Shown here: in pieces, positions 12,165 through 17,391 of the stretch | How the letters are laid out: each line of letters opens with the position of its first letter | Position numbering within the stretch: position 1 is the stretch's first letter | Origin: an uncultured Alphaproteobacteria bacterium | GTDB lineage: Bacteria > Pseudomonadota > Alphaproteobacteria > CAAGCB01 > CAG-977 | Reading direction: 5' to 3' | Assembly (NCBI GenBank): GCA_944390195.1 | Contig: CALXOZ010000020.1 | Location: forward strand, 1 to 35,323 | DNA length: 35,323 nt | The notes under the pieces: generated by a model | The model's database searches: none | What the model was told of the DNA's origin: nothing | Seen by the model: only the letters and a program-made list of their open reading frames with translations | Position numbers and translations under genes: made by a program

Positions 12165-14939
12165 TTGTCTGAAAAGCGGCCGTTGGCGATGGCGGCGGGA
12201 GTGAAAGATTTTGTGTTGGCTACGGCGGACGGACAGGACGTTTCCGTCGTTAAAGCCCATGAAGTGTTCCGCAAAACGGACGGAGCGCCGGTTTTATTGT
12301 GCAACCGGTCTTTGATGAAAGGTCGCTTGGGCGGTCGAATGCCCAAAGTGGTCTTGGACGTTTTGGAGCTGTTCGCTTTTGTTTGTCCGGCGCAAAACGT
12401 TGTTCCGACAACGCAAGGCTTGGCGGAAGCTTTGAATGTTACTTTGCCCCGTAATGCGTTGGAGGAAACGAAGACCTTGTTTTCCGTTACGCGGGTTTTA
12501 TTGGGCAAGCTTGCCGCGTTTCATCAGGAAGAACGCAAAAACGTTTCCGCTTTGGCTTTGACGATGGCGCGCGAAGGCGGTTGGATTTGGGGTGCGGACG
12601 TTGTGGCGGCGTTGGGCAAAGATCCGCGGACGACCGGAATTGTCGGGTTGACGGGCTTTGCCGTTTGGGACAGACTGACCGAATGGCAGGAAAGCGCGCC
12701 GATACAGCCGGCGGGAACACAACCGGTCGAGGAATTCGAAGCCGAAAAAAAATTAAAGGAGCTGCTTGCCAGTCCGATTAAAGATTTTGTCGTGGAAGAA
12801 CGCAATGATCAGACGGCTTATGCCAAAACGGCGGCTAAAGCTTTTGATCCGAAGACAGATAAGGAGATTCCTGTAACGGTTCTGGCGCAGGCGGGAACGG
12901 GGATCGGCAAGACGTTGGGGTATCTTGCGCCGGCGGGCGTCTGGGTTGAAAAAAATGCGGGATCGGTCTGGATCAGCACATATACGCGCAATTTGCAACG
13001 TCAGTTGGAACGCGAACTGTCCCGACTTTATCCCGATCCGCAGGTTAAACGGCGCAATGTCGTCGTGCGCAAGGGACGGGAAAACTATTTGTGTTTGTTG
13101 AACTTTGCCGAAGCGGTCGGGCGGATTGTGCAATCTCCACCTTCCGCCGTTCCGTTGGGGTTGATCGCGCGTTGGATCGAAAAAACTCAAGACGGCGATT
13201 TAAGTGGCGGAGACTTCCCCGGCTGGCTGGGCGATCTTTTGAATAAACAAGGTTTGATCAATCTGGCGGATCAGCGCGGAGAATGTATTTACGCGCAATG
13301 CCCGCACTATAAGAAATGCTTTATCGAAAAGATCCTACGCCGTAGCAAACACGCGAAAATCGTGATTGCCAATCATGCTTTGGTGATGACGCAACTGGCG
13401 GGGGCGACTGAAGACATTGCTTTGCCGGCGCGCTATGTTTTTGACGAAGCGCATCATTTGTTTGAAGCGGCGGACGGCGTGTTCGCAGGCGAAATCAATT
13501 TGCGTGAAGGGTTTGAAATCAGGCGTTGTCTTTTGGGAACGGAAGAACGTCGCCATACTGGCAGAACGCAGGGGATTCAAAGAAGACTGGAAGATTTGAT
13601 TCTACTGGTGCCCGATATCGGGGTTTTGACGCAGGACATCGTTCAAACGGCGGGATTTTTACCACGAAGCAACGCTTTGGCGCGTTTGAAAAACAGAACC
13701 CCGCAAGGCAGTTTTGAAAAGTTTTTAATGCAGGTCTTTCGTCAAGTGAACGCGCGCGCTCAACAAGTCGATACGCTGTATTCTTTGGAATGCGATCCGC
13801 GCCCCGCCGATACCGAACTGGTCGATACGGCGTTAAAGCTTTATGGCGATGTCAAGTTGTTGGAAGAAAAAGTCAAATTGCTGATCCGTTTGATTGAAAA
13901 ATACATCAATGACAACGCGGCGGAGATTGAAACCGCTGATAAACAAAGATATACGGCAGCCCTTCGATCTTTGAAAAAAACGGTGGCGGAACCGTTAGCG
14001 GTTTGGCGGGTGATGCTGGAACAGCTGAATCTGGAAACACCGGAAGATTTTATAGATTGGTTGGAAATCACGCGCACGGACGGCTTTGACAGCGATGTCG
14101 GATATCACAGACATTGGGTCGATCCGACTTTTCCGTTTGCGCATATGCTTCGCCAAACCGCGCACGGCGTTTTAATGACGTCCGCGACTTTGACCGATAA
14201 AAGCGGCGATCCGGAAAAAGACTGGAACTATGCCGTCAAAAGAACGGGGACAGCTTATTTTGAAACGCCGGATCTGCCTTTTGAATTGACGCGGGCGAAC
14301 TTTAATTCCCCGTTTGATTACGCGAACAACGCGCGGGTGTTTATCGTTACCGATGTCAACAAAGCCGATGTCGGACAGGTGGCGGCGGCGTATCGGGAGT
14401 TGTTTTTGGCGGCGCAAGGCGGAGCATTGGGCGTTTTTACGGCGATCAAACGCTTGAAAGCCGTTTATCAAAGAATCAAAGAACCGTTGGCGGACGCGGG
14501 CTTGCCTTTGTTGGCGCAGCATATTGATACGGTCAATTTGCAGACGTTGTTGGATATTTTTAAAATGCAACGGGACAGCTGTTTGTTGGGAACGGACGCG
14601 GTGCGGGACGGCATTGACGTTCCGGGGCGGTCTTTGCGCATGATCGTGTTCGATCGGGTGCCGTGGCATCGTCCCGATATCGCGCACAAAGCCAGAAAGG
14701 AAGCGTTCGGCGAAACGGGGGAAGCGTACAACCTGATGCTGGTGCGCATGAAATTGCAACAGGCGTTCGGACGTTTGATCCGTAAAAAAGACGACAAAGG
14801 CGTTTTCGTTTTGCTTGACCGTGCCGTGCCAAGCGAAACGTTGACGGCTTTTCCCGAAGGCGTGACGGTTGAAAAAAACGGACTGAAAGAAGTCATTGAA
14901 AAAATCAAAGAGTTTTTTAAAAACGAAACTTGCTCTTAA
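12165..14939 (+). CDS. DinG/XPD-like ATP-dependent DNA helicase
   Basis: This is a superfamily 2, COG1199-type 5'-3' DNA helicase of 924 residues. It has Walker A AGTGIGKT at 243-250 and the DEAH box in VFDEAHH at 427-430. Four cysteines at C310, C374, C379 and C385 are placed to bind the 4Fe-4S cluster of this family. Downstream are MTSATLTD and the motif VI region QAFGRLIRKKDD. The first 200 residues match the alphaproteobacterial form, in which a degenerate nuclease-like domain precedes the helicase. The likely role is DNA repair or processing of R-loops and G-quadruplexes, as for DinG. The chosen start is TTG at 12165, 10 bases after AAAGGA; an ATG at 12189 is the alternative. Confidence 0.87.
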   Translation: MSEKRPLAMAAGVKDFVLATADGQDVSVVKAHEVFRKTDGAPVLLCNRSLMKGRLGGRMPKVVLDVLELFAFVCPAQNVVPTTQGLAEALNVTLPRNALEETKTLFSVTRVLLGKLAAFHQEERKNVSALALTMAREGGWIWGADVVAALGKDPRTTGIVGLTGFAVWDRLTEWQESAPIQPAGTQPVEEFEAEKKLKELLASPIKDFVVEERNDQTAYAKTAAKAFDPKTDKEIPVTVLAQAGTGIGKTLGYLAPAGVWVEKNAGSVWISTYTRNLQRQLERELSRLYPDPQVKRRNVVVRKGRENYLCLLNFAEAVGRIVQSPPSAVPLGLIARWIEKTQDGDLSGGDFPGWLGDLLNKQGLINLADQRGECIYAQCPHYKKCFIEKILRRSKHAKIVIANHALVMTQLAGATEDIALPARYVFDEAHHLFEAADGVFAGEINLREGFEIRRCLLGTEERRHTGRTQGIQRRLEDLILLVPDIGVLTQDIVQTAGFLPRSNALARLKNRTPQGSFEKFLMQVFRQVNARAQQVDTLYSLECDPRPADTELVDTALKLYGDVKLLEEKVKLLIRLIEKYINDNAAEIETADKQRYTAALRSLKKTVAEPLAVWRVMLEQLNLETPEDFIDWLEITRTDGFDSDVGYHRHWVDPTFPFAHMLRQTAHGVLMTSATLTDKSGDPEKDWNYAVKRTGTAYFETPDLPFELTRANFNSPFDYANNARVFIVTDVNKADVGQVAAAYRELFLAAQGGALGVFTAIKRLKAVYQRIKEPLADAGLPLLAQHIDTVNLQTLLDIFKMQRDSCLLGTDAVRDGIDVPGRSLRMIVFDRVPWHRPDIAHKARKEAFGETGEAYNLMLVRMKLQQAFGRLIRKKDDKGVFVLLDRAVPSETLTAFPEGVTVEKNGLKEVIEKIKEFFKNETCS

Positions 14940-14958
14940 TCCGAAACTTTGCTAGCTT
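14930..14958 (+). promoter_or_regulatory. Candidate promoter of the structured RNA
   Basis: TTGCTC (14930-14935) and TAGCTT (14953-14958) are separated by 17 bases. The match to consensus is weak, and the -35 lies inside the last codons of the helicase gene. Transcription would start near 14965. The RNA may instead be made by read-through from the helicase gene. Confidence 0.3.
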
Positions 14959-14961
14959 TAT

Positions 14962-15160
14962 GGTGCATTCGCGACAGCGGGTGCAGGGCGTCGAAAACCC
15001 TTTTAATTCCAGTCGTAAGCATAACGACTTTAATTTCTATGCCGATTTCTGCCGACAGGCGGGTGTCGGCGTTATAAGGCTTTGCGCGAAATCGCCGAGC
15101 CGTTTGGAATTATACGGTTTTCGAACATCCGCCTACCTTTTAAAGGTAGGTTTTGTTTTT
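14962..15160 (+). ncRNA. Candidate structured RNA or leader with multi-branched fold
   Basis: No protein family fits this stretch, but it folds well by eye. An outer stem pairs 14977-14983 with 15126-15132 (7 bp, one G-U). A second pairs TCGAAAACC (14991-14999) with GGTTTTCGA (15116-15124), and a third pairs TAATTCC (15004-15010) with GGAATTA (15106-15112). Inside are three hairpins: AGTCGT/ACGACT (15011-15029), GCCGACA/TGTCGGC (15051-15070) and GGCT/AGCC (15078-15101). The element ends in a strong intrinsic terminator, and an outer-membrane protein gene starts 28 bases later. It could be a small RNA or an attenuator/riboswitch-like leader. It lacks the signature sequences I know for 4.5S RNA, tmRNA, RNase P RNA and common riboswitches; 6S RNA is not excluded. 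Confidence 0.6.
15132..15160 (+). terminator. Intrinsic terminator capping the structured RNA
   Basis: CCTACC (15132-15137) pairs with GGTAGG (15145-15150), and the stem can extend through TTT/AAA. The tract TTTTGTTTTT follows at 15151-15160. It lies between the folded RNA and the outer-membrane protein gene, as an attenuator would. Confidence 0.85.
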
Positions 15161-15187
15161 AATGTTTAACAAAAGGTGTTCGAAAAG

Positions 15188-15820
15188 ATGAAAAAACTCT
15201 TTTTATTATTGACGGCTTTCGCCGTTTTCTATCCGTTCGGCGCAAAGGCGCAAGACTTTGCTCCGTACGTTTCAGCTAAAGGTGTCATGACCGATCTGTC
15301 GGCTTCGTTGAACGGATATGATATCGATTATGAAAATTTGGGACTGAATGTCGCGCTCGGGACAAAAGTCAATGAAAATATGCGTGTTGAATTTGAAATC
15401 GCTTATCGTGGTGAAGATTCCGTCAACGAATCATATGTGTATGAAGATTCCGGATATTTGTACGGCGGACAGGACGACATCAGTTTGTCAACGATGTCGT
15501 ACATGATTAACGGTTATTATGATTTTTATAATCAGTCCTCTTTAACGCCGTATGTCGGATTGGGACTGGGGTTGGCCAAAGTGAAATACGAAAACGAATG
15601 GTGGGAAGATTCTTCCATGGGTATTTTCAGCGGTAAATGGAAAGCGTCCAAAACAAAGATGGTTTGGAATGTTGCCGCGGGACTTTCTTATAAAATCAAT
15701 GAAAAAACAAATCTGGATTTGGGATACCGTTATGTCGATTACGGGTCTTTTTCAAAAGAGGAAAGTAAATTTGAAACAAAAGCAAACGAATTCAGTTTGG
15801 GCCTTCGTTTCGCTTTTTAA
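15188..15820 (+). CDS. Outer-membrane beta-barrel protein (OmpA-like/opacity type)
   Basis: This is a 210-residue secreted protein. A signal peptide covers residues 1-21 (basic MKK, hydrophobic core, FGAKA cleavage site). The mature part has about eight alternating beta-strands, such as SLTPYVGLGLGLAKVKY and TNLDLGYRYVDYG. It ends in LGLRFAF, the C-terminal aromatic signal recognised by the BAM complex. Size and pattern fit the eight-stranded opacity/OmpA-like porin group, which has structural or adhesin roles; the specific function is unknown. The ATG at 15188 was chosen because AAAAGG lies 11 bases before it and MKK starts the signal peptide. A GTG at 15176 has no room for a ribosome site. 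The structured RNA upstream may control it. Confidence 0.8.
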   Translation: MKKLFLLLTAFAVFYPFGAKAQDFAPYVSAKGVMTDLSASLNGYDIDYENLGLNVALGTKVNENMRVEFEIAYRGEDSVNESYVYEDSGYLYGGQDDISLSTMSYMINGYYDFYNQSSLTPYVGLGLGLAKVKYENEWWEDSSMGIFSGKWKASKTKMVWNVAAGLSYKINEKTNLDLGYRYVDYGSFSKEESKFETKANEFSLGLRFAF

Positions 15821-15827
15821 CGTGATG

Positions 15828-15859
15828 AAAGAAAGCGGGGGAAGCTCCGCTTTCTTTTT
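15828..15859 (+). terminator. Intrinsic terminator of the beta-barrel gene
   Basis: AAAGAAAGCGG (15828-15838) pairs with CCGCTTTCTTT (15847-15857) around the loop GGGAAGCT, and the stem runs directly into Ts up to 15859. It lies 8 bases after the stop codon. Confidence 0.88.
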
Positions 15860-15933
15860 GTCTTAATGCTTGACTTTTGGTTGTTTTCAGAACAGATTTT
15901 AAAAAAATTATTTTTTTGAAAAGGATCTTAAAC

Positions 15934-17391
15934 ATGGAAGTCAGAAGCAGATTTGCCCCGTCTCCGACAGGATATATGCATATCGGAAACCTCAGGACGG
16001 CTTTGTACGAATATCTGGTCGCCAAAAGTGCCGGCGGCAAGTTCATCTTGCGCATCGAAGACACCGATCAGGAACGCTATGTCGAAGGCGCGGTCGATAT
16101 CATTTATAAAACAATGCAAATGGTCGGGCTGCAACATGACGAAGGTCCCGATGTCGGCGGCGATTACGGTCCTTATGTTCAATCCGAACGCAAGCCGATT
16201 TATAAAGAATATGCCGACAAGCTGGTCGATCTGGGCGGCGCGCACTATTGTTTTTGTTCCGAAGAGGAACTGGAAGCCCAGCGCAAAGCTTGCGAAGAAG
16301 CGGGGATACCCTTTAAATTCCGCGATCCGTGCAAAAAATTAAGCGTTGAGGAAGCCAGAAAACGCATTGCCGCGGGGGAAAAATACACCGTGCGGCAAAC
16401 GATCGATCCCAAAGGAACGGTGTCTTTTGACGACTGCGTTTACGGTCATGTCACGGTCGAAGCAAAAACTTTGGATGAAGGCATTTTATTAAAGTCGGAC
16501 GGCTTGCCGACATACAACTTCGCCAATGTCGTGGACGATCATTTAATGAAGATCACGCACGTTTTGCGCGGTAACGAATATTTGTCTTCCACGCCGAAAT
16601 ATAATCTGATGTATCAGGCGTTCGGGTGGGACATTCCGACGTATGTTCATTTGCCCCCGATTATGAAAGACGAACACAACAAGCTGTCCAAACGCAACGG
16701 CGATGCGTCTTTTCAGGATCTGGTCGCCAAAGGCTATCTGCCCGAAGCCATTGTCAACTACATTATTTTGCTGGGTTGGAGCGCCAAAAACGACGAGGAA
16801 ATCTTTTCGATGGCGGAATTGGAAAAGATTTTCAATATCGAAGGTATCAACAAATCTCCGGCGATTTTCGACATTGAAAAATTAAAATGGATGAACGGCG
16901 TTTATATGCGTAATCTGCCCGCCGAAAAATTCCACGAGCTGGCTTTGCCGTACTATAAAGACGCGATCAAGCGCGATATCGACTTGGTCGTGTTGTCAAA
17001 GTGCGTTCAGCCGCGCGTCAACATTTTAAGCGAAATTCCCGAAGCGGTCGATTTTATCGATACGTTGCCGGCATACGACATTGAGATGTATGTCAATAAA
17101 AAGATGAAGACGACACCGGAAATCGCTTTGAAAGCTTTACAAGAGGCCAAACAGGTCATTGCCGGCATGACCGACTGGTCAAGCGTGGAAGCCGTGCACG
17201 ATCCGTTGTTGGCGATGCCTGTAAAGCTCGGCATGAAGAACGGGCAGTTCTTATGGCCGATCAGGACGGCGTTGACGGGCAAGCAGTGCACGCCTGTCGG
17301 AGCGGTCGAAGCGGTCTATCTGTTCGGAAAAGACGAAAGCTTGAAGAGAATTGAAACCGGCATTGAAAAATTAAAAGCCGTTCTTGCTTGA
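15934..17391 (+). CDS. gltX: Glutamyl-tRNA synthetase
   Basis: This class I enzyme charges tRNA-Glu, or both tRNA-Glu and tRNA-Gln in organisms that use the amidotransferase route. The 485-residue product has the HIGH motif as MHIGN (H16) in FAPSPTGYMHIGNLRTALY, and the KMSKS motif as KLSKR from K250. Cysteines C106, C108 and C133 lie where some GluRS enzymes bind zinc. The C-terminal helical anticodon-binding domain is complete. The start at 15934 has AAGGA 8 bases upstream and begins exactly where the family does; an upstream in-frame start at 15877 would add 19 unrelated residues. Many alphaproteobacteria carry two gltX copies, and which one this is cannot be told here. Confidence 0.94.
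   Translation: MEVRSRFAPSPTGYMHIGNLRTALYEYLVAKSAGGKFILRIEDTDQERYVEGAVDIIYKTMQMVGLQHDEGPDVGGDYGPYVQSERKPIYKEYADKLVDLGGAHYCFCSEEELEAQRKACEEAGIPFKFRDPCKKLSVEEARKRIAAGEKYTVRQTIDPKGTVSFDDCVYGHVTVEAKTLDEGILLKSDGLPTYNFANVVDDHLMKITHVLRGNEYLSSTPKYNLMYQAFGWDIPTYVHLPPIMKDEHNKLSKRNGDASFQDLVAKGYLPEAIVNYIILLGWSAKNDEEIFSMAELEKIFNIEGINKSPAIFDIEKLKWMNGVYMRNLPAEKFHELALPYYKDAIKRDIDLVVLSKCVQPRVNILSEIPEAVDFIDTLPAYDIEMYVNKKMKTTPEIALKALQEAKQVIAGMTDWSSVEAVHDPLLAMPVKLGMKNGQFLWPIRTALTGKQCTPVGAVEAVYLFGKDESLKRIETGIEKLKAVLA

Follow-up and report, generated by a model that had tools for sequence, protein, structure and literature searches.

What is the structured RNA that lies directly upstream of an outer-membrane protein (OMP) gene in this alphaproteobacterial contig, and what does it do there? 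In the window (the whole 35,323-nucleotide stretch of DNA analysed), positions 14962-15160 had been predicted to encode an unassigned multi-branched RNA, either a small RNA or an attenuator acting in cis on the beta-barrel gene. It is probably both, a leader with an antisense segment against the translation start: we suggest, with a probability of roughly 0.78, that the element is a C4-type antisense leader repressing translation of the downstream OMP gene. What is known of C4-type control comes mainly from phages P1 and P7 and from phage-derived Acinetobacter RNAs. The three-strand C4 layout found here is that of a multicopy chromosomal leader of gut Alphaproteobacteria, often placed before surface-protein genes. 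Three things go beyond the original prediction: the pairing possible with the translation start, the existence of a multicopy family and the link to sRNA-Xcc1 and C4. The parts of the element are listed in Table 1.

Table 1. Features of the leader RNA and of the gene that follows it, in window coordinates.
Feature	Position	Strand	Basis or remark
Promoter-like site	14930-14958	+	TTGCTC, 17 nt spacer, extended -10 TGCTAGCTT (14950-14958)
5' hairpin	14964-14985	+	Fold; sequence widely variable among copies
a1, the P1a 5' strand, GTCGAAAACCC	14990-15000	+	P1a pairing with 15116-15124; covariation
b1, the 5' strand of hypervariable P1b	15004-15010	+	P1b pairing with 15106-15112
P2 hairpin, weak terminator-like	15011-15029	+	Loop GCATA pairs with TATGC preceding P3
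P3 hairpin (GCCGA/TCGGC), precursor form	15041-15070	+	94.3% of cells paired
Predicted mature antisense RNA	15057-15142	+	Sub-threshold sRNA-Xcc1 (RF02221) match; C4-like fold
5' strand of the closing stem, predicted to be cut at its 5' end	15057-15065	+	Pairs with 15126-15134
P4' arm, CGGCG 15067-15071/CGCCG 15093-15097	15067-15097	+	AU-rich internal loop
P5 hairpin AGCCGT/ACGGTT	15098-15119	+	b' (15106-15112) in loop; fold
a' antisense segment GGTTTTCGAACA	15116-15127	+	Pairing with a1 and with a2
Closing stem 3' strand CATCCGCCT	15126-15134	+	Pairing with 15057-15065
Terminator-like hairpin (15131-15151) and T-rich tail	15131-15160	+	Terminator check
Shine-Dalgarno-like AAAAGG of OMP gene	15171-15176	+	Sequence
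a2 TGTTCGAAAAG, abutting the start codon	15177-15187	+	Complementary to a'
Outer-membrane beta-barrel gene, 210 aa from ATG	15188-15820	+	PF13505 E 1.4e-20; PF02462 Opacity E 6.4e-13

The RNA is real, beyond chance. Its 199 nt fold with a minimum free energy (MFE) of -87.7 kcal/mol, where dinucleotide shuffles give -56.3 +/- 4.4 kcal/mol (z -7.15; none of 200 folded as well), which bears out the earlier view that so much complementarity is unlikely to be accidental, and the terminator expected after it is present as a hairpin with a T-rich tail. No Rfam family reached its gathering threshold in the window, in agreement with the earlier remark that signature motifs of 4.5S, tmRNA, RNase P and common riboswitch classes are absent, and the models for 6S RNA, tmRNA, RNase P RNA and SRP RNA found no match there; the hits to PyrR, rli60, hammerhead and others that appear at relaxed Rfam thresholds are at chance level. 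The two identities that the original prediction named as grounds for abandoning it, 6S RNA and a degraded coding region, were thus not found: no 6S match lay above threshold, there is no long ORF, and covariation excludes a decayed gene. A self-cleaving ribozyme at the closing stem was also considered and seems unlikely, the order of the helices being nested.

Covariation among homologues is strong. It was assessed in an alignment (A2) of 81 distinct homologous copies, fitted to the structure of a covariance model (R1) built from 27 copies, so that the figures that follow lean towards P1-P3 and not towards the helices of the mature form. Of three coaxial stems originally proposed, the inner two are exact and covary: P1a (14991-14999/15116-15124) has 99.4% of its cells paired and P1b (15004-15010/15106-15112) 97.2%, with double changes at 7 of 7 P1b pairs. 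P1b is hypervariable in sequence, yet all four Watson-Crick types occur at most of its pairs, and the match between the reverse complement of b' and the 5' strand is 8.42, compared with 4.17 when permuted (0 of 10000). The outermost stem (14977-14983/15126-15132) is possible in the window copy but not conserved; 14977-14983 makes up the 3' side of the 5' hairpin at 14964-14985, which stands apart from P1, and the conserved partner of 15126-15134 is 15057-15065. Taken together, P1a, P1b, P2 and P3 have 97.8% of cells paired, against at most 46% in slid controls. The count of double-changed cells is 354, where shuffles give 85 and slid controls no more than 63; in addition, the P2 loop covaries with the strand preceding P3.

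The helices of the mature form (closing stem, P4' and P5), of which the closing stem and P4' are mutually exclusive with P3, have 97.3% of cells paired and 56 double-changed cells versus 18. The closing stem (15057-15065/15126-15134) is paired in 99.1% of cells and the P4' arm in 93.4%, with double changes at 4 of 6 pairs, while the 99.7% for P5 comes from four counted pairs that scarcely vary.

The 3' strand of P1 has a second partner. Together with adjoining bases it forms a segment, a', that is complementary to the start region (a2) of the gene downstream, and a1, a' and a2 have changed together across the family. In the window, a' (GGTTTTCGAACA) pairs with a2 (TGTTCGAAAAG) at 15177-15187, abutting the ATG at 15188, as a 12-bp helix in the MFE structure of the full leader (duplex -14.3 kcal/mol). 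The a'/a2 match is copy-specific. Among 65 non-redundant copies, the exact match between a' and the start region averaged 6.88 against 5.74 permuted (0 of 10000), compared with 4.63 against 4.60 in a control region, and cognate duplexes had a mean of -14.7 kcal/mol against -12.15 +/- 0.26 kcal/mol permuted (0 of 5000), in tests that remove composition and the shared motif but relatedness only in part. A stronger argument than these statistics is given by the matched changes in divergent copies: L028 (TTTCGAGA/TCTCGGAAATG), L100 (TTTGTAACATCC/GGATTTTACAAATG), L116 (CTGAAAATCC/GGATTTTCAG) and L063. The gene typically starts 45-60 nt (~50 nt) after the element, irrespective of which gene it is. 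No corresponding b2 signal was seen when b' was compared with the downstream region in the window's branch (4.60 against 4.68 permuted). None of the other copies in the window's genome (L014, L024, L031, L052, L112) has the TTCGA core in a', and the window's a'/a2 pair may therefore be private in its genome.

In copies that precede integrase-like genes (L018, L027, L058, L121, L111), the closing strand and the terminator typical of the family are lost, as is the complementarity to the start site, and a common unrelated sequence replaces the 3' part; the usual a2 arrangement is missing from L018, L027, L058 and L121.

This order of parts is that of a phage immunity locus. In the annotation of P1 immI, a promoter is followed by a1, b1, C4 (77 nt), a2, b2 and icd, and C4 itself folds into a closing stem, a hairpin, a hairpin with b' in its loop, and a single-stranded a'. 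The predicted mature RNA of the window folds in the same way. C4 (RF01695) and c4-a1b1 (RF03163), joined in clan CL00128, share with the window a one-transcript layout and an antisense segment directed at a translation start; RNase P processes C4, whose loops cover the region of the ribosome-binding site (PMC5320573). In contrast to C4, the window RNA has no detectable b2, its a' reaches into the closing stem to cover the start region, it targets a surface-protein gene on the chromosome where C4 targets an antirepressor, and it is multicopy. The C4 model, which does recover P1 c4 at 68.8 bits, found no match in the window at E up to 10 or in 18 related loci at E up to 1. We therefore consider the window RNA to be laid out like C4, since it has the same order of parts and the same fold, and do not file it as a C4 member, because the model has no match and b2 is absent. 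As far as its anatomy tells, it would act like C4.

By analogy with phage P1, we propose the following mechanism. Transcription would begin at the promoter-like site and give a transcript from about 14965 that carries a1/b1, the folded domain with b' and a', the terminator-like hairpin, and then a2 with the start codon. In this precursor, the a1:a' helix (P1) would hold the antisense segment. A cut near 15057, probably made by RNase P, would release a mature RNA of about 85 nt that no longer carries a1. Its freed a' could then bind a2, on the same transcript or on another, and so prevent translation of the OMP. Relief might come in cis from an intact a1:a' helix, or in trans from an a1-bearing leader stopped at the P2 hairpin. 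In 55 of 80 copies an extended -10 of the form TGnTAnnnT lies no more than 60 nt upstream, mostly at a fixed offset, compared with 6 of 80 in a control region; the window copy's promoter-like site did not pass a strict sigma-70 scan. Among the traits of RNase P substrates, a GG start and a CC-rich 3' end are partly present, and the incomplete CC-rich 3' end counts against the model.

Several of these properties would also suit a riboswitch in which P1 and the enclosed domain form an aptamer and a ligand decides between the two partners of a', a1 and the translation start: the fold is complex, with exclusive helices and an additional loop pairing, the AU-rich internal loops are conserved, and the distance to the gene is fixed. 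We think this unlikely, however, as the downstream genes have no pathway in common, no Rfam riboswitch family is matched, and the C4 layout and fold account for the exclusive helices without any ligand.

Two further known systems resemble the window RNA in part. The Group 1 sRNAs of Acinetobacter baumannii are C4-type RNAs with many chromosomal copies per genome, apparently processed at a GG site; in contrast to the window they match the C4 Rfam motif, and the portions of the report available to us describe no linked target gene for each copy (PMC5320573). IsrK of the Salmonella prophage Gifsy-1 (RF01394) is a leader RNA ending at a terminator, and its read-through mRNA is translationally inactive until bound by the short leader RNA (PMC4825925). 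The isrK model matches the P1 c4 leader below threshold. IsrK differs from the window RNA in sequence and in the genes downstream. An activating role for the window's own short leader is a prediction that can be made by this analogy.

The best sub-threshold Rfam match of the window RNA is to sRNA-Xcc1. The sRNA-Xcc1 model (RF02221) matches 15057-15142 with 35.2 bits (E 1.4e-4 for 411 nt searched), which is below its gathering threshold of 53 bits, and it matches five other copies with 28.7-36.7 bits. Many R1 copies likewise give scores short of the threshold, and R1 and RF02221 detect some loci in common. Both groups have a closing stem, an arm with an AAUA-type internal loop and a b' hairpin. 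In contrast to the window family, sRNA-Xcc1 loci often keep both a2 and b2 and lie before antirepressor-type or SymE genes, and sRNA-Xcc1 has hitherto been described as a trans-acting sRNA. A sample of 398 Pseudomonadota genomes gave RF02221 matches in 58, 39 of them above the cut-off. When 42 Xcc1-type loci were read outwards, an upstream strand was found to pair with the region preceding the 3' strand of the closing stem, in many of them the gene start region mimics the upstream a1/b1 strand, and in 18 of the 42 RCC follows the closing stem directly. Among 41 such loci, the upstream match was 7.44 against 5.40 permuted and the downstream match 6.41 against 5.09 (0 of 10000 in each case), with a control of 5.12 against 5.07. 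The genes downstream include BRO-N, KilA-N, P22_AR_N, Rha, SymE and HTH_3; sRNA-Xcc1 has been placed upstream of symE in Xanthomonas integrons (PMC12444791), and Xylella has seven copies, five of them clustered (PMC12189769). The link to sRNA-Xcc1 led us to consider an integron attC site, which seems unlikely, as the a1/a2 copies vary with P1 and have no fixed core. In an nhmmer comparison of Xcc1-type leaders with the P1 c4 leader, the top match of the set (E 0.0026, 12.2 bits) was weak and confined to the terminator-like hairpin, and homology of the two leaders is therefore only suggestive.

In the usual description of sRNA-Xcc1, the window RNA would be the product of a trans-acting sRNA gene, complete with promoter and terminator, whose place beside the OMP gene is fortuitous. 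Its promoter-like site and terminator do delimit a unit of about 195 nt, and in Xanthomonas sRNA-Xcc1 is a discrete 88-nt RNA with mapped ends (PMC2996969). Against this, the antisense segment is specific to the start of its own downstream gene, with matched changes, which makes a purely coincidental neighbourhood quite improbable; additional targets in trans would be compatible with a C4-type leader. The mapped 88-nt RNA fits the predicted processed form, and the members of sRNA-Xcc1 resemble what would be left after processing of a C4-type leader, one that silences the gene immediately downstream. sRNA-Xcc1 thereby gains a concrete mechanism and a target, and, if this is true, reports of it as a trans-acting virulence or vesicle RNA would read differently. 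We found no earlier paper making the link between sRNA-Xcc1 and C4, in a literature coverage that was incomplete.

The window's own family is patchy. By blastn, copies were found in 12 genomes among 96 relatives, with 4 in the window's genome; R1 found 6 in that genome and up to 25 in another genome of the genus. Within the window's family of bacteria the number of R1 copies per genome ranges from 0 to 25, two genomes having none; across the class, 13 of the 289 genomes sampled have R1 members. Most of the named records in which the core motif occurs are metagenome-assembled genomes of rumen and gut Alphaproteobacteria, and the few records from other groups may owe their pattern match to chance. 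A plasmid search for the element gave no match, nor did viral contigs searched with one exact pattern, and a phage search gave a single match, the unannotated faecal contig MT836653.1. This 9.3-kb contig from human faeces, labelled 'Bacteriophage sp.', carries a 75% identical copy (L272:577-755).

The slot between a helicase gene and gltX in which the window copy lies (14939-15934) is variable, with different genes in close relatives: G002, whose GltX is 99% identical, retains only the end of the OMP gene, an unrelated gene occupies the slot in G005, and a different R1 unit adjoins gltX in G001. It therefore seems that units of RNA and gene come and go. Such a variable slot, together with copies that are numerous, dispersed, patchy and often close to contig ends, could be taken to indicate a mobile repeat, a MITE-like DNA element whose folds serve DNA transposition and have no function as RNA. 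We regard this as highly improbable, given that the compensatory changes in P1b and the relation of a1, a' and a2 are properties of RNA function, that the spacing between gene and element is constant, and that foreign insertions fall inside copies.

R1 copies often precede surface-protein genes. We put forward, tentatively and as an idea more probably wrong than right, that in rumen and gut Alphaproteobacteria an immunity RNA of phage type has been domesticated and now forms a silencing network spanning the genome, with dozens of surface-protein genes each having a C4-type RNA of its own and with units also silencing paralogues. If so, shared a'/a2 sequences would let one unit silence paralogues, and the hypervariable b1/b' stem would keep each precursor folding on itself. 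The combination of shared a'/a2 and private b1/b' folding would make expression of the surface repertoire mutually dependent through RNA.

Some copies have themselves been interrupted. Two different insertions occupy an identical point within the closing-stem 5' strand, directly after GGGCGGAT (L106:1501-1778, L076:1501-1656, L107, L111; L104, L105, L109, L110). One is palindrome-rich, about 120 bp long and also present in a genome of another family; the other is represented by its end, CAACCCAGTTAAAAAG, where contigs stop. Insertions may thus favour the repeated RNA gene as a target site. The G004 orthologue of the window copy (L002; G004:C12:1733-1827) is split over two contigs inside the P2 hairpin. 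The cause is apparently an insert, one end of which recurs in L108.

Two RNA copies lie close together on the same strand in L006/L113, L088, L092 and L104. A group of cysteine-rich secreted repeat proteins (CPANATC...) is encoded at L003, L013, L022, L051, L078, L080 and other loci (G002, G004); these proteins have weak Pfam matches to MSC, EGF_MSP1_1 and Giardia VSP, and many of their genes sit behind an RNA copy of their own.
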